This document shows positions 7,982-64,000 of a DNA stretch of 64,000 nt, piece after piece. Numbering within the stretch: the stretch's first letter is position 1; each line of letters begins with the position of its first letter. The stretch lies in contig NZ_AP025737.1 of assembly GCF_023734115.1 (NCBI RefSeq), positions 310,001 to 374,000 of the forward strand. The letters are read 5' to 3'. The notes below the pieces were generated by a model. The model was not told where the DNA came from and ran no database searches. It was given only the letters and a program-made list of their open reading frames with translations. A program made the position numbers and the translations under genes. The DNA comes from Herbiconiux sp. L3-i23 (GTDB taxonomy: Bacteria; Actinomycetota; Actinomycetes; Actinomycetales; Microbacteriaceae).

Positions 7982-8032
7982 GTCGGCCCGACATCGACCT
8001 GGGCGCATCTCGACCGACGGGACTTGTCCAGG

Positions 8033-8080
8033 TGCCCAGTTCTGCGGGTCATGAGCGCGAAACACCCGCAGAAGTGGGCA
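8033..8080. repeat. dispersed palindromic element, family P1, copy 1
   Basis: Two 17-base arms (8033-8049 and 8064-8080) pair with a single mismatch around a 14-base loop. The same arms, the same mismatch and the same loop length recur at 37485-37532, while the loop bases differ. It lies just past the stop of the MFS gene. It may act as a terminator or RNA hairpin, but the repeat nature points to a mobile or REP-like element. Confidence 0.75.
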
Positions 8081-8082
8081 TC

Positions 8083-9348
8083 TCAACGGGCAGTCGCGCC
8101 GTCCGAGCCCCAGGGGTCGATCTCCTCGACGTCGCGCACCCCGCGCAGCGCGAGGAACATCGGCAGCGGAGTGATGACGATGATGAGCCCCGAGATGAGC
8201 AGAGTGAGGCGGGCGCCGATGAGATCGCCGAGCACACCGCCGAGGAGGGCGCCGATGGGGAAGCCGAACATGATGAGTACCCGCACTGTGGCGTTGACGC
8301 GGCCCAGGAGGTGGTCGGGGCACAGTCGTTGGCGGAGGCTGACGTTCGTGATCGAGTAGATGATCTGGCCGAGCTCCCCGGCCGCGCCGCCGACGATCAG
8401 CAGCACGATGCCGAACCACCCGGGCTGCGCCAGAACGTTCACCAACGAGAGCGGTGCGGTCACCGCGAGCGACAGCCAGATGATGCGCGCCGACCCGAAG
8501 GCGCCGGCGAGGCGCGGAGTGAGGGCGGCTCCGGCGATGACGGTGACCGACCCGACGGCGAACACGATGCCGATGACCGGCGCGGACAGTCCGAGGGTGC
8601 GGGCGGCGAAGATGATGGTCACGGCCGAGGCGATCGCGAAGGCGAAGTTGCCGCCGGCGCTCGCCAGCGCCGTGGCGCGGAGGATCCGGTTACCGAGAAC
8701 GAAGCGGAGCCCCTCGGCGATGTCGGTGCGCAGTCGCGGCCGCACCGCGGGCACGGGCAGCGCGGTCTCGCGGGTGCGGATCGCCATCAGCGACAGCGCC
8801 GACGCGGCGAACGTCGCCGACTGCACGAGCACGACGTTCGCGGCGCCGATCAGCGCCACGAGGAAGCCGCCGATGCCGGGACCCGCGACCTGGCCCGACG
8901 CGCGCAGCGTCTCCATCGCCGAGTTGCCGGCGAGCACCTTGTCGCGTCCGATGACCGAGGGGATGTAGCTCTGATAGCCGACGTCGAAGAACACTCGGGC
9001 GGCGCCCAGCAGGAGCGAGACGACGATGAGCTGGGCGATGCTGAGCGCCCCGAACAATGCGGCGAGGGGGATCGTCGCCAGGAGTACCGCTCGGGCGATG
9101 TCGCTCGCGATGAGGATGGGGCGCCGGTGCATGCGGTCGACCCACGCGCCGGCCGGCAGACCGATGAGCGCGAACGCGATGGTCGACGCGGCGGAGACCA
9201 GGCCGACCTCCAACGCGGATGCGTCGAGGTCGAGCACGGCGAGCAGCGGGATCGCGACCGCGCTGACCTGGCTGCCGAGTTGGCTGGTGGTCTGGCCCGC
9301 GAGCAGCAGCCGGAAATCACGGTGGGCGAACAACGAAGCACCGGACAC
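8083..9348 (-). CDS. MFS transporter, drug/siderophore exporter type
   Basis: A 421-residue membrane protein with about 12 hydrophobic segments. The start FAHRDFRLLLAGQTTSQLGS and the loop GLPAGAWVDRMHRR (the A-motif between helices 2 and 3) are typical of the MFS_3 group that includes enterobactin exporter EntS and macrolide pumps. The GTG start at 9348 follows AGGAGG, a strong ribosome binding site. It is a single-gene unit, divergent from the CAP-like gene. The substrate is not visible from sequence. Confidence 0.88.
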   Translation of the reverse strand: MSGASLFAHRDFRLLLAGQTTSQLGSQVSAVAIPLLAVLDLDASALEVGLVSAASTIAFALIGLPAGAWVDRMHRRPILIASDIARAVLLATIPLAALFGALSIAQLIVVSLLLGAARVFFDVGYQSYIPSVIGRDKVLAGNSAMETLRASGQVAGPGIGGFLVALIGAANVVLVQSATFAASALSLMAIRTRETALPVPAVRPRLRTDIAEGLRFVLGNRILRATALASAGGNFAFAIASAVTIIFAARTLGLSAPVIGIVFAVGSVTVIAGAALTPRLAGAFGSARIIWLSLAVTAPLSLVNVLAQPGWFGIVLLIVGGAAGELGQIIYSITNVSLRQRLCPDHLLGRVNATVRVLIMFGFPIGALLGGVLGDLIGARLTLLISGLIIVITPLPMFLALRGVRDVEEIDPWGSDGATAR

Positions 9349-12976: not shown

Positions 12977-12997
12977 CCGAGGAGTCGTTCCACCCGG

Positions 12998-13455
12998 TCG
13001 TCGAGTAAGCGAAGCGCACCGAGACCATGCCCCTGTGCTCTCGATACGCTCGTTCCTCGCTACTCGAGCCGTCTCGATACGGCGCTGGCGCGCCTACTCG
13101 ACGACCGGGTGGGGACTCGTGCCCTTCGTATCGCTTCGCTCAACGCGCGGGCCCCTATTCGGTCGTTGAGTAGCGACGAAGGAGCGTATCGAAACGGGTC
13201 GAGTAAGCGGAGCGCATCGAGACCATGCCCCCTGTGCTCTCGATACGCTCGTTCCTCGCTACTCGAGCCGTCCCGATACGGGCCTGGCGGCCCTACTCGA
13301 CGACCGGGTCTGCGACTCGTGCCCTCCGTATCGCTTCGCTCGCGAGCGTGCCTGGACCCGGTCGTCGAGTAGCGACGGAGGAGCGTATCGAGTCCCCCGC
13401 GCAAGCGTGCGCGGTGGGCTCAGGGTCGAGTAAGCGGAGCGCATCGAGACCGCAG
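12998..13455. repeat. tandem and inverted repeat block of Microbacteriaceae type
   Basis: About 460 bases made of repeated forms of GTCGAGTAGCGACGGAGGAG and its reverse complement, with related words such as TCGATACGCTCGTTCCTCGC. Two long direct copies of about 130 bases start near 13009 and 13208, offset by about 199 bases, and differ at only a few positions. A third, partial unit ends the block. No ORF with coding character lies inside. It fills the gap between the convergent dacB and ribokinase genes. Similar words are widely scattered in genomes of this family; no transposase is present. Confidence 0.85.
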
Positions 13456-34848: not shown

Positions 34849-34872
34849 CGACGACGGACTCGTCCGTCGTCG
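34849..34872 (-). promoter_or_regulatory. hairpin between FMN aptamer and ribD (candidate expression platform)
   Basis: Ten-base perfect arms (34849-34858 with 34863-34872) with a four-base loop, directly next to the aptamer end. It may switch pairing with the aptamer to hide or free the ribD ribosome binding site, which lies about 40 bases further on. Confidence 0.5.
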
Positions 34873-34873
34873 A

Positions 34874-35017
34874 CGTGCTGCCTCTCATCCAGACTGTGAC
34901 TGTCGGTTCCGGAATTCCACCGGATCGGCCGGCCCGTCACCTCGAGGAGTTCGAGGATCGGATGCCGGTTCGCGGACTTTGACCGCCGGTTCGGACTTAC
35001 ACCGACCCCGGAGCACG
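34874..35017 (-). promoter_or_regulatory. FMN riboswitch (RFN element)
   Basis: On the minus strand the leader shows the conserved blocks GGGGTCGGTGTAAGTCCG, AACCGGCGGT, AGTCCGCGAACC, then GGTGGAATTCCGGAACCGAC, AGTCACAGTCTGGATGAGAG and a closing GCAGCACG. The P1 stem is CGTGCT (35017-35012) with AGCACG (34879-34874). It binds FMN and lowers expression of the riboflavin operon that follows. Confidence 0.95.
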
Positions 35018-35031
35018 TGTTTCTTGGTTCT

Positions 35032-37443: not shown

Positions 37444-37484
37444 GGGACCGCCCCTGCGCGATCCTCCGCCGTCGCTCGCCGAGA

Positions 37485-37532
37485 TGCCCAGTTCTGCGGG
37501 TGTTCGCGCCTTGCGACCCGCAGAAGTGGGCA
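37485..37532. repeat. dispersed palindromic element, family P1, copy 2
   Basis: Arms 37485-37501 and 37516-37532 are identical to those of the copy at 8033-8080, including the single mismatched pair, and again enclose 14 bases of unrelated loop. It lies between the exodeoxyribonuclease stop (37543) and the trpS promoter, so it may also stop transcripts entering trpS. Confidence 0.75.
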
Positions 37533-37542
37533 CCTCGCCGGG

Positions 37543-38385
37543 CTAGGGGAGCTGGTAGTCCGCGACGACCGGGGTGTGATCCGAGAAGCGGGCGTCGTAG
37601 GTGGCCGCGCGATCGACGGCGTAGTCGACGACGGTGTCGGCGAGTGCCTTCGTCGCCAGCTGGTAGTCGATGCGCCATCCGCTGTCGTTGTCGAACGCCT
37701 TTCCACGCCACGACCACCACGTGTAGGGGCCGTCGGCCTCGCCCGCCCACTTGCGGCCGACGTCGACCCAACCGAGGCCGCCGCCGGCGTTGTAGTCATC
37801 GGCGTCCTCTGCCCCGACGAACCGGTCGAAGTACGCGCGCTCGTCGGGCAGGAAGCCGGCGCGCTTCACGTTGCCCTTCCAGTTCTTGATGTCGAGGGTG
37901 CGGTGGCCGACGTTGAGGTCGCCGAGCACGACGGCGAACTCGCTGTGCGCCGCAATCTCGGGGAGTCTGCGCTCCATGGCGTCGAGGAACGCGTACTTCT
38001 CGACCTGCTTGGGGGTGTCGGCCTCACCGGAATGAACGTAGGCGCTGACCACGGTGATGACGCGGCCACCGATCTCGTAGTCGGCCTCGAGCCAGCGCCC
38101 CGCCGTGTCGAAGTCGTCCTCTCCGATCGCGACGCGGTGGATGTGCGCCTTGTCGCGGCTGGCGATCGCGACCCCGGCGCGCCCCTTGGCGCTCGCCGCG
38201 TCGTGGAGGATGTTCCACTCGGGACCGAGCAGCTCTTCGAGGTCTTCCGTCGAGGCGCGCACCTCTTGGATGGCGAGGATGTCGACATCCCGGCTGCCGA
38301 GCCAGTCGGCCATGCCGCGTCGGTAGGCCGCGCGGATGCCGTTGGCGTTGATGGTGGCGATGCGGAGTCTCTGAGGTGTCGGCAC
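37543..38385 (-). CDS. xth: exodeoxyribonuclease III
   Basis: A 280-residue AP endonuclease / 3'-exonuclease for base excision repair. It has RIATINANGIRAAYRRG, LAIQEVRA with the metal-binding Glu, VVSAYVHSG, LGDLNVGHRTLD, then DNDSGWRIDYQLAT and the final SDHTPVVADY with the catalytic His. All conserved residues are visible. The GTG start has a -10 box TAGGGT six bases upstream. It is a single-gene unit. Confidence 0.94.
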   Translation of the reverse strand: MPTPQRLRIATINANGIRAAYRRGMADWLGSRDVDILAIQEVRASTEDLEELLGPEWNILHDAASAKGRAGVAIASRDKAHIHRVAIGEDDFDTAGRWLEADYEIGGRVITVVSAYVHSGEADTPKQVEKYAFLDAMERRLPEIAAHSEFAVVLGDLNVGHRTLDIKNWKGNVKRAGFLPDERAYFDRFVGAEDADDYNAGGGLGWVDVGRKWAGEADGPYTWWSWRGKAFDNDSGWRIDYQLATKALADTVVDYAVDRAATYDARFSDHTPVVADYQLP

Positions 38386-53083: not shown

Positions 53084-54369
53084 CCGCGACCGAGATCAGC
53101 CAGGTGCCCGACTCGTCGCCGATCGTGCTCGAGAAGGCGCGCGTGCGCAGCTGGAAGTCGCCCGTCGCGCTGGGCGTCTTCACCCTGCTCGGCGCGATCC
53201 TCTTCATCGGGTTCTCCCGCGACGGTGTGAGCGGGTTCCGGCTGTCGACCGACTCCGACTTCATCCAGCTGCCCGACCTGTCGCTGCCGACTTTCGCCAC
53301 CTGCCTCGTGCTCGTGCTCGTGGCCGCCGCGATCACGGGAGTGAGCGTCGGCTACACGCTGCGCTCGGCGAAGACGCCGCTCTGGCTCATCGCCGTGTTC
53401 GCGTTCCTGCTGCTCGTCGCCTTCCTCACCTGGGCGGCGGCGGGGGCCACCATCCCGGTGCCGGGCCTGCTCGTCGGCGCCCTGGGCCTCAGCGTCCCGC
53501 TCATCTTCGGAGCGCTCGGCGGCGTCATCTCCGAGCGGGTCGGCGTCGTCAACGTCGCCATCGAGGGCCAGCTGCTCGCCGGCGCGTTCACCTCCGCCGT
53601 CGTCGCGTCGATCACCCGCCAGCCGCTGCTCGGGCTCGTCGCCGCGATGGTCGCGGGCGTGCTCGTCTCGTTCGTGCTCGCCGCGTTCTCGATCAAGTAC
53701 CTCGTCGACCAGGTCATCGTCGGTGTCGTGCTCAACGTGCTGGTCACCGGCCTCACGAGCTTCCTGTTCTCGCAGGTGCTCACGGCCGACCCGACGCTGC
53801 TCAACCAGCCGCCGCGCTTCGAGCGCATCGAGATCCCGTTGCTCAGTCAGATCCCGATCATCGGGCCGGCGCTGTTCCGGCAGACGATCATCGTCTACTT
53901 CGTCTACGTGGCGATCTTCGCCGTCTGGTACGCCCTGTTCCGCACCAAGTGGGGTCTGCGACTGCGCGCCGTCGGCGAGCACCCGCAGGCCGCCGACACC
54001 GTCGGCATCAAGGTCGCGGCGACCCGGTTCTGGAACGTGTCCCTCGCCGGTGCGATCGCCGGCTTCGGCGGCGCCTACTTCACGCTCGGTTCGGTCGGCT
54101 CGTTCAACAAGGAGATGACCGCGGGTGCGGGCTTCATCGCCCTCGCGGCGGTGATCTTCGGACGCTGGGATCCGATCCGCGCCACTCTCGCCGCCCTGCT
54201 GTTCGGGTTCGCGAGCAATCTGCAGAACGTGCTCAGCATCATCGGCTCGCCGGTCCCGAGCGAGTTCATGCTGATGCTGCCGTACATCGTGACCATCTTC
54301 GCGGTCGCGGGTCTCGTGGGACAGTCGCGAGGTCCGGCGGCGTCCGGCAAGCCGTACATCAAGTCGTAG
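53080..54369 (+). CDS. nucleoside ABC importer permease 2
   Basis: A 429-residue membrane protein with about ten hydrophobic segments. It has LIFGALGGVISERVGVVNVAIEG, LRAVGEHPQAADTVGIKV and FIALAAVIFGRWDPIRATLAALLFG, signatures of the NupC (YufQ)-type permease. It pairs with the permease before it. The cytidine deaminase gene follows after 11 bases, which supports a nucleoside substrate. Confidence 0.92.
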   Translation: MTATEISQVPDSSPIVLEKARVRSWKSPVALGVFTLLGAILFIGFSRDGVSGFRLSTDSDFIQLPDLSLPTFATCLVLVLVAAAITGVSVGYTLRSAKTPLWLIAVFAFLLLVAFLTWAAAGATIPVPGLLVGALGLSVPLIFGALGGVISERVGVVNVAIEGQLLAGAFTSAVVASITRQPLLGLVAAMVAGVLVSFVLAAFSIKYLVDQVIVGVVLNVLVTGLTSFLFSQVLTADPTLLNQPPRFERIEIPLLSQIPIIGPALFRQTIIVYFVYVAIFAVWYALFRTKWGLRLRAVGEHPQAADTVGIKVAATRFWNVSLAGAIAGFGGAYFTLGSVGSFNKEMTAGAGFIALAAVIFGRWDPIRATLAALLFGFASNLQNVLSIIGSPVPSEFMLMLPYIVTIFAVAGLVGQSRGPAASGKPYIKS

Positions 54370-54380
54370 GGGGCAGGTCC

Positions 54381-54791
54381 GTGGCAGACGAGATCGATTG
54401 GTCCGCGCTCCGCGAGGTCGCGGTCGAGGCGATGAAGAAGGCCTACGTGCCCTATTCGCACTTCCCGGTGGGAGTCGCCGCGATCGTCGACGACGGGCGG
54501 GTGATCAGCGGCGCGAACGTCGAGAACGCCTCGTACGGCGTCACGCTGTGCGCGGAATGCTCGCTCGTGTCGGCGCTGATCATGTCGGGCGGCGGCAAGC
54601 TGGTGGCGTTCACCTGCGTCGACGGCGACGGCGGCGCCCTGATGCCGTGCGGTCGCTGCCGCCAGCTGCTGTACGAGCACTCGGCCGACGGCATGCTGCT
54701 CGAGACGGTGAGCGGCATCCGCACGATCGACGAGGTGCTCCCCGACGCCTTCGGCCCCCGCACCCTCGCCGCCTACCAGTCCAGCCACTAA
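54381..54791 (+). CDS. cdd: cytidine deaminase
   Basis: A 136-residue enzyme that turns cytidine and deoxycytidine into uridine forms. The substrate loop is VPYSHFPVGVAAI, the zinc site with the catalytic Glu is LCAECSLVSAL, and the other two ligands are in PCGRCRQLLYE. It is the short, tetrameric kind. GTG 54381 follows GGGGGCAGG. It ends the importer operon. Confidence 0.95.
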   Translation: MADEIDWSALREVAVEAMKKAYVPYSHFPVGVAAIVDDGRVISGANVENASYGVTLCAECSLVSALIMSGGGKLVAFTCVDGDGGALMPCGRCRQLLYEHSADGMLLETVSGIRTIDEVLPDAFGPRTLAAYQSSH

Positions 54792-54801
54792 CCCCCTCTA
54801 C

Positions 54802-54880
54802 CCCCGCGAGCGCGGTGTGTTGCTGCGACCGCGGGTGTTTATACAGGCGCGCTCGCAGCAACACACCGCGCTCGCAGGGG
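54802..54880. repeat. dispersed palindromic element, family P2, copy 1
   Basis: Arms of 26 bases (54806-54831 and 54850-54875) pair almost fully around an 18-base loop starting CGGGTGTT. The same arms and loop length recur at 63317-63393. It follows the cytidine deaminase stop and may end that transcript. Confidence 0.8.
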
Positions 54881-54905
54881 TATCGAGCGGCGAACGGTTC
54901 GTCAC

Positions 54906-61792: not shown

Positions 61793-61866
61793 AATCGACG
61801 CGGCCGCCGCCGCCCAGTCGCGTGCGCGACCTCTCGCGGACACCTTCATAGGGGAGAATGTCTGGA

Positions 61867-63306
61867 ATGGCCTATGCATTCGAACGCAAACAGCGCATCG
61901 GTGTACTCGGCGGCGGCCCCGGCGGCTACGAGGCCGCCCTCGCCGGCGCGCAGCTCGGCGCCGAGGTGACCCTCGTCGAACGGGTCGGCATCGGCGGATC
62001 CGCCGTTCTCACCGACGTGGTCCCGTCGAAGACGCTCATCGCGACCGCCGAAGCGACGACCGCCATCGGCGAGTCCGGCGACCTCGGGGTGCAGTACTTC
62101 ACCCGCAACGACTCAGGCCGTTCGGTCCGCCCCGAACTCGCTGTCAACCTCTCCGCGGTGAACAAGCGCCTCACCGGACTGGCGCGTCAGCAGTCCGAGG
62201 ATATGAAGGCGAACCTGAAGCGGGCCGGCGTGCGTATCGTCACCGGTGAGGGGCGGCTCGAGGGACCGAACAAGATCGTCGTCTCGACCGCTCGTGGCAA
62301 GGCGGGACGCGACTTCGACGAGGTCGAGGTCGACACCGTCGTCGTCTCGGTCGGGGCGAGCCCGCGGATGCTCCCGTCGGCGATGCCGGACGGCAAGCGC
62401 ATCTTCACCTGGACCCAGCTCTACGCGCTCGACGAGGTCCCCGAGCAACTCATCGTCGTCGGGTCCGGTGTCACCGGTGCCGAGTTCGCCTCCGCCTACT
62501 CGGCGCTCGGTGCCGACGTCACGCTCATCTCGAGCCGCGACCAGGTGCTGCCCGGCGAGGATGCCGACGCCGCGGCCGTCATCGAAGAGGTCTTCACCCG
62601 CGGCGGTATGACCGTGCTGTCGAAGAGCCGCGCCGAGAAGGTCGAAGTGAGAGGCGACGGCGTCGTCGCGACGCTCTCCGACGGGCGGGAGGTCAGTGGC
62701 AGCCACTGCCTGATGGCCGTCGGCAGCATCCCGAACACCGACGGCATCGGCCTCGAGGAGGCGGGAGTCCAGCTCACCGCGTCCGGCCACATCCGGGTCA
62801 ACCGTGTGGCGCGCACCTCGGTGCCCTCGATCTACGCCGCCGGTGACTGCACGACGTTCCTTCCACTGGCGTCGGTGGCTTCGATGCAGGGACGCTCGGC
62901 CGTGTTCCACGCGATGGGCGACGCGGTCACCCCGACCGAGCTGCGCAACGTCGCGAGCAACGTCTTCACCCAGCCGGAGATCGCGACCGTCGGCTGGTCG
63001 CAGAAGCAGATCGAAGAGGGCATCGCGCAGGGCGAGATCTACAAGCTGCCGCTCGCGAGCAACCCGCGGGCGAAGATGCAGGGCGTGCGCGACGGTTTCG
63101 TGAAGCTGTTCGCACGCACCGGATCGGGCACGGTCATCGGCGGGGTCATCGTCGCCCCGCGCGCGTCCGAACTCATCCTGCCGATCGCGATGGCGGTCGA
63201 GCACCGCCTCACCGTCGACCAGTTGGCACGCGCCTTCAGCGTCTACCCGAGCCTCTCGGGCAGCATCACCGAGGCGGCGAGAGCCATGCACATCGTCGAA
63301 GACTGA
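61867..63306 (+). CDS. lpdA: NAD(P)H:quinone reductase of the dihydrolipoamide dehydrogenase fold
   Basis: A 479-residue FAD protein. FAD binding is IGVLGGGPGGYEAALAG and the NAD site is LIVVGSGVTGAEFAS. The redox Cys pair of true lipoamide dehydrogenases is missing: residues 43-55 read GGSAVLTDVVPSK. The C-terminal His-Pro dyad is also replaced (VYPSLS). This is the pattern of mycobacterial LpdA (Rv3303c), a quinone reductase. ATG 61867 lies ten bases after GGGGAG; ATG 61858 is the alternative and is too close to that site. Confidence 0.88.
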   Translation: MAYAFERKQRIGVLGGGPGGYEAALAGAQLGAEVTLVERVGIGGSAVLTDVVPSKTLIATAEATTAIGESGDLGVQYFTRNDSGRSVRPELAVNLSAVNKRLTGLARQQSEDMKANLKRAGVRIVTGEGRLEGPNKIVVSTARGKAGRDFDEVEVDTVVVSVGASPRMLPSAMPDGKRIFTWTQLYALDEVPEQLIVVGSGVTGAEFASAYSALGADVTLISSRDQVLPGEDADAAAVIEEVFTRGGMTVLSKSRAEKVEVRGDGVVATLSDGREVSGSHCLMAVGSIPNTDGIGLEEAGVQLTASGHIRVNRVARTSVPSIYAAGDCTTFLPLASVASMQGRSAVFHAMGDAVTPTELRNVASNVFTQPEIATVGWSQKQIEEGIAQGEIYKLPLASNPRAKMQGVRDGFVKLFARTGSGTVIGGVIVAPRASELILPIAMAVEHRLTVDQLARAFSVYPSLSGSITEAARAMHIVED

Positions 63307-63316
63307 CCCCCCGTTC

Positions 63317-63393
63317 CCCCGCGAGCGCGGTGTGTCGCTGCGAGCGCGGGTGTTCAAACAGCAGCGCTCGCAGCAACACACCGCGCTCGCATT
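63317..63393. repeat. dispersed palindromic element, family P2, copy 2
   Basis: Arms 63321-63346 and 63365-63390 pair with one mismatch around an 18-base loop (CGGGTGTTCAAACAGCAG). Arms and loop length match the copy at 54802-54880. It begins ten bases after the quinone reductase stop. Confidence 0.8.
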
Positions 63394-63493
63394 GGTGAGG
63401 GCGGTTCCTCCCCAGAGAGGCCGCAGCTCCTGAGGTCCACGGGAAGCGAGGCCGGCGGACGCTGAAGCGTGCAGGCGTGTCAGGTTGGCGCGA

Positions 63494-64000
63494 TGACGCT
63501 TGCCCTCGTATCCAACTGGCGCGACGAGTTCGTTCTGGCCCGCGATGCACGGAACATTCACTCGCCGCGTGACCTCGCGCGCATGGTGCGTAGCGGCGAC
63601 CTCGTGCGCATCGCGCGGGGTGTGTATCGGCGGCGGGCGGCGATGCCCGACGTCATCGACGATGACGACCGGTACCTCGCCCTCCTGCGCGCGACCCAGC
63701 TCGTCGCCGACGGGCCGCTCGTGCTGTCGCACCTCTCGGCAGCTCGCCTCTGGGGATTGCCGGTCCCCAGCCGGTGGCCCGAATCGGTGCACGCCATCCA
63801 GCCGCCGGAGGCCGGCGGGCGTTTCGGCAGCCTGGTGGTGCGACACGGGGTCCCACTGCCGACTCCGCCGGTCCACCGCGACGGACTCTGGTGCACCGAC
63901 CTCGCTCGGACGGTTGTCGATGTGCTGCGGGTGTCGCCGCCGCACGTTGGCATCGTGGTCGCCGACGCCGCGATGAGGGGCGACGCCGACATCGGCCGCG
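63494..64000 (+). CDS. AbiEi-antitoxin-like HTH protein, 3' truncated by window edge
   Basis: The frame is open from ATG 63494 to the window end (169 codons). The N-terminal domain has SPRDLARMVRSGDLVRIARGVYRRR, which matches the winged-helix of the type IV AbiEi antitoxin-like family. LVADGPLVLSHLSAARLWGLPVP follows, then VVRHGVPLPTPPVHRDGLWCTDLARTVVDVL. In Actinobacteria such proteins often end in a DUF559/VSR-like endonuclease domain. That part would lie outside the window. No AbiEii toxin gene is seen. Function unknown; defence or DNA modification is only possible. Confidence 0.65.

Follow-up and report, generated by a model that had tools for sequence, protein, structure and literature searches.

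The window considered here, a stretch of 64,000 nt taken as a whole, harbors two copies of an 82-nt palindrome (P2), each of which follows closely on the end of a gene. Copy 1 begins 8 nt past the stop codon of a cytidine deaminase gene (at 54791), and copy 2 begins 8 nt past that of an NAD(P)H-quinone dehydrogenase gene (at 63306), in agreement with an earlier note on this DNA that had set both palindromes right after stop codons. The features, in window coordinates, are as follows.

54369-54791, plus strand: cytidine deaminase gene (NCBIfam NF004064, E 3.8e-54; start approximate)
54800-54881, no strand: P2 element copy 1, 82-nt palindrome, ACCCCCGCGAGCGCGGTGTGTTGCTG...CAGCAACACACCGCGCTCGCAGGGGT
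54806-54822, plus strand: outer conserved arm GCGAGCGCGGTGTGTTG, including the outer core X (CGAGCGCGG); alignment columns 7-21 invariant
54826-54834, plus strand: inner core X (CGACCGCGG), placed 19 nt after its outer counterpart; arm autocorrelation peaks at lag 19
54859-54875, minus strand: opposite outer arm CAACACACCGCGCTCGC
61858-63306, plus strand: NAD(P)H-quinone dehydrogenase gene (NCBIfam NF005883, 716.6 bits)
63315-63396, no strand: P2 element copy 2, 82-nt palindrome
63469-64000, plus strand: AbiEi-like gene, 5' part; flanked by copy 2 and by the following P2 copy, which lies beyond the window (G000:C1:374450)

Both palindromes are present where they had been reported, at 54802-54880 and 63317-63393, although the true repeat unit is slightly larger at 82 nt. 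Folding returns a single hairpin for each copy, of -66 to -81 kcal/mol, with a stem of about 33 bp (the predicted RNA fold of copy 1 is about -75 kcal/mol on the plus strand and -81 on the minus strand), and these folds far exceed those of dinucleotide shuffles (z -9.2 to -12.7; none of 200 shuffles equal). The copies share the loop start CGGGTGTT, as the earlier note had observed, but the stretch that it called an "18-base loop" is no simple loop, as it contains the inner half of a second core-repeat pair (CGAGCGCG...CGCGCTCG) and pairs further.

The plan of this non-coding element consists of four core sites. A core X of about nine bases, CGAGCGCGG in the source genome (G000), occurs twice per arm, 19 nt apart, to give X-X-loop-X'-X'; the consensus in this genome is ACCCCnGCGAGCGCGGTGTGTTGnnnCGAGCGCG-loop-CGCGCTCGnnnCAACACACCGCGCTCGCnGGGGT, and the conserved ends read ACCCC/GGGGT or TCCCC/GGGGA. 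Columns 7-21 are invariant in 17/17 regular copies, as is the opposite arm save for rare single changes, and columns 6, 24-26 and 34-36, which lie beside these invariant blocks, vary freely. The gapless 82-nt outer-arm register is kept in all 23 two-armed copies extracted from this genome and in all 18 copies of a congener, G008. A genome search found X-like cores almost only within palindromes or palindrome fragments.

Other repeats occur in the window. The P1 palindrome family (GAGGTGCCCAGTTCTGCGGGT...ACCCGCAGAACTGGGCACCTC; 37469-37548 and 8030-8083) recurs at about 35 genomic places, frequently clustered in tandem at spacings of 70-150 nt; it has no internal 19-nt direct repeat, and the suggestion that P1 and P2 are of the same design is therefore not borne out. 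Inverted repeats of the form GGTCGTCGAGTAGCGA...TCGATACGCTCGTTCCTCGCTACTCGA are clustered after a gene at 12984-13392, with similar repeats in gene gaps of G008. An FMN riboswitch is located at 34871-35020 on the minus strand (89.7 bits).

Dispersed copies and their position at gene ends

The two copies originally counted are too few, as whole-genome search recovers 26 dispersed P2 places in the 3.18-Mb source genome, which belongs to the Microbacteriaceae; among these 26 is the copy at G000:C1:374450, 450 nt outside the window. At seven of the 26 places one arm or both carry an extra hairpin module of about 31 nt, and another place is decayed. In this sub-family (L007, L022, L023, L027, L028, L029 and L030), part of an arm is replaced by the module, TGGGCCC-hairpin-GAGGGAG, and L030 holds two different modules, one in each arm.

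Most copies in the source genome start 1-20 nt past a stop codon. Their contexts, for which genes were called with a simple codon-usage score, are convergent in 11 cases, tandem in 13 and divergent in 1; these counts include two corrections by hand, at L001, where the true cytidine deaminase frame had been overlooked, and at L015, where a short convergent gene had been overlooked, yet is visible in orthologues. The position after stop codons is general, extending to other genomes, in which 25 contexts are convergent, 20 tandem and 4 divergent (27/76 unclear; convergent vs divergent, p=1e-4) and the median distance from stop codon to element is 18 nt. G008 is less strict, with 5 of its 18 copies in divergent gene gaps.

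A G+C-rich hairpin just past a stop codon is the form expected of an intrinsic terminator, and P2 has that form. It is conceivable that each element was recruited on its own as an ordinary terminator, intrinsic or of hairpin type, and that they are alike by chance or composition, a reading that agrees with their post-stop position, strong hairpins and convergent gaps. However, no U-tract or T-run follows the P2 stem, and a terminator scan called no terminator at P2. Sequence identity over 26 sites at constant length, and sub-families that share the same hairpin insert, likewise run counter to independent recruitment, which we regard as highly improbable. A chance origin of the palindromes themselves was ruled out by the 26 copies, their identity and their constant length.

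Sequence dialects and concerted evolution

The gene gap that holds copy 2 is also occupied in G008 (G008:C8:110591-110678), where the orthologous palindrome follows the same plan in another sequence. The 18 copies in that congener are identical to the P2 of the source genome in length and design, and are written in a different sequence dialect. Six of them lie in gene gaps also occupied in the source genome, against a chance expectation of 0.2-0.65 (p at most 3e-5; computed with 27 source-genome copies instead of 26, with no material difference). An element tree splits by genome (G000 vs G008, 100/100), and orthologous copies are 59-66% identical, compared with 64% for random cross-genome pairs and 82-88% within a genome; flanking genes are about 75-89% alike between the two species. 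Because orthologous copies are no closer than random cross-genome pairs, and copies within a genome are much closer, P2 copies are under concerted evolution, in which a change on one arm is compensated on the other. Stem pairs 1-82, 11-72, 12-71, 17-66, 22-61 and 31-52 have both sides switched between the two genomes, and covariation reaches 0.239, compared with 0.110 when shuffled (0/500) and no more than 0.076 when the partners are slid. Circularity does not arise in this test, since the G008 family was found via gene order and not through a structure model.

A third dialect, of CAACAGGC or CAGCAGGC type palindromes and again with a 19-nt step, occurs in the congeners G004, G001, G005 and G002; in G004, such palindromes occupy the positions orthologous to copy 1 and to one other site. 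Each genome keeps to one dialect even where the same gap in another species holds another. Several tested congener gaps contain unrelated palindromes or none, and occupancy therefore turns over between species; copies come and go. The earlier note had held that copies always found at orthologous places would speak against movement: six G008 copies do share a gap with the source genome, but the remaining copies do not.

Two loci in G001 (L033 and L035) carry longer ladders of the CGAGCGCGG core, in which at least three direct copies spaced by 19-21 nt precede the inverted ones, which suggests that units per arm can grow in number. Separately, an AbiEi-like gene lies between two P2-type elements both in the source genome (G000:C1:373316-374532; window 63315 to 532 nt past the end) and in G008 (G008:C8:110591-111739). 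G002 and G004 lack this gene and have the same two outer genes side by side, and the segment of element, AbiEi-like gene and element is one sign of larger-scale movement.

Related palindromes occur outside the genus as well. A covariance model built on the first two dialects finds matches in 17 of 300 family genomes, from 9 genera and nearly all at full length, and a multi-dialect model finds them in 18 of 396 genomes of the order, from six families; genomes found in this manner are biased to the pairing and spacing of the model, and the E-values are rough. This bias does not affect the G008 set or the G004-type set, nor the sharing of one dialect by the copies of a genome. The arm step is 19 across lineages and 20 in one family (f9), each genome has one dialect (CGAGTGCGG, CGGCTGTG, CAGCGCGG, CGAGGGCGGG, CGAGTGCCGG, AAACGCGGCGG and others), X is altered jointly in outer and inner sites between dialects, and some genomes carry tandem clusters of elements. 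An exact scan of 84,980 GTDB species for the 17-nt arm returned 89 loci with a single match each, the source genome possibly being excluded; these single matches are read as chance and not as a species-level relative. A plasmid search confirmed Microbacteriaceae affinity only, and viral contigs gave no P2 match. No Rfam family reached its gathering score for P2, the only hits being sub-threshold hairpin look-alikes such as miRNA models, and no P2-like family is described in the open-licence literature searched.

The behavior of X invites a further explanation, namely that a protein, whether architectural or regulatory, binds X sequence-specifically in DNA or RNA, and that the four sites drift together through co-evolution with that protein. 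X is near-invariant within a genome beside freely varying columns, its outer and inner sites change together between dialects, and the 19-20 nt step is fixed across six families, all of which would fit such a role. Yet no protein is known for X, X-like cores are nearly confined to palindromes, the positional bias is to gene ends and not promoters, and co-evolution at dozens of loci would need a spreading mechanism as well; we consider this explanation decidedly improbable. A broader proposal is put forward tentatively, as one that may well prove wrong: that palindromes with four sites (X-19-X-loop-X'-19-X') form a class spanning the order Actinomycetales, kept by a hitherto undescribed copying system or factor of specific sequence preference, which brings every copy in a genome to one dialect, element and factor co-evolving as lock and key at gene ends.

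Mobility, putative function and known systems

The earlier note suggested terminators that are also mobile. Position, pairing and turnover agree with that suggestion, but the missing U-tract does not, nor do the searches for a mover. PF01797 (Y1/RAYT) was absent from all carrier or congener genomes searched (0/9 and 0/13, 22 in total), and 5 of 14 control genomes were positive. Target-site duplications were not above those of shuffled pairs (0.88 vs 0.89 nt in G000; 0.89 vs 1.19 in G008), palindromic extension into the flanks, hinted at by a few copies, was not above shuffles, and the hits in the source genome included no longer or autonomous element with P2 ends. No empty-site pair was close enough to reveal an insertion event.

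These results bear on two mobile-element explanations. REPINs are described as mobile units of inverted short-repeat pairs around a loop (PMC3116915), a general form that P2 shares, and P2 might be a non-autonomous REP/REPIN-type element copied as a unit by a transposase acting on single-stranded hairpins. In keeping with this, the arms are short, inverted about a loop and specific to each lineage, the copies are scattered between genes, and some genomes carry tandem clusters. However, RAYT is absent from the 22 genomes despite the positive controls, the conserved P2 ends lack the GTAG or CGTC that tags REP sequences (PMC3733652), and the four-site 19-nt plan is not described in that paper; membership was rejected on the defining features, RAYT and tag, and the explanation appears unlikely. 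It is also scarcely credible that P2 is a MITE, the remnant of a classical transposon bounded by terminal inverted repeats: the ACCCC/GGGGT ends are inverted and the copies dispersed, as such an origin would have it, but the source-genome hits include no longer P2-ended element, and a MITE with target-site duplication was rejected, none being found above shuffles. A DNA uptake sequence was rejected as well, as abundant single words are absent and the strong genome matches are palindromes or fragments.

P2 is, by observation, a multi-copy element with a 3'-end bias, whose pairing is kept by coordinated arm changes, whose dialect is homogenised within genomes and whose sites turn over. The explanation that we favor, with a confidence only slightly better than even, is that P2 elements are bidirectional 3'-end hairpins that insulate neighboring transcripts and have been spread and homogenised within genomes. 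P2 RNA would fold into a highly stable hairpin that can be read from either strand; this hairpin may end or insulate converging or tandem transcripts and protect mRNA 3' ends, and such a role could be the reason that P2 is retained after stop codons. Copies would multiply and overwrite one another, through gene conversion between repeats or copy-and-paste by some enzyme, with the consequence that each lineage would drift to its own dialect under a fixed plan. Several observations weigh against this explanation: the missing U-tract; the G008 copies between divergent genes, where a terminator is not expected; the near-invariance of X within a genome, as a plain terminator requires no conserved sequence; and the failure to find a transposase, target-site duplications or a suitable empty-site pair.

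That structure, length and internal period are kept as the sequence is rewritten in each species calls for a homogenising force, and none is known for P2. Orthologous P2 sites allow gene conversion, hidden transposition and factor co-evolution to be told apart. If the hairpins do insulate convergent genes, they would bear on how transcripts end without U-tracts in high-GC actinobacteria.

Among known systems, P2 is like REP/REPIN elements in being a short palindromic, multi-copy, dispersed and lineage-specific intergenic repeat with an inverted conserved pair around a loop, but unlike them it comes without RAYT in the 22 genomes searched and without a GTAG or CGTC tag at its conserved ends, and in Actinomycetales it has a fixed four-core plan with a 19-20 nt step in a palindrome some 82 nt long. 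BIMEs, ERIC/IRU and other long intergenic palindromes are, like P2, imperfectly palindromic, lie in gaps that are transcribed, commonly close to the ends of genes, and are present or absent between species; P2 differs from them in sequence and length, and we know of no internal direct repeat per arm or multi-dialect concerted evolution in any of them. Neisserial DNA uptake sequences arranged as terminators resemble P2 as short words in inverted pairs at gene ends with species dialects, but the P2 word is nearly confined to the four-site palindrome, with about 26 per genome as opposed to many hundreds. With intrinsic terminators P2 shares a place in convergent gaps and a stable hairpin at most about 20 nt from a stop codon; it differs in the missing T-run, the conservation of sequence across sites and a stem of the length given above. 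P2 is uncatalogued in Rfam at threshold and lacks the REP/REPIN defining features that were tested, and in its working it resembles the known intergenic palindromes REP, BIME and ERIC.
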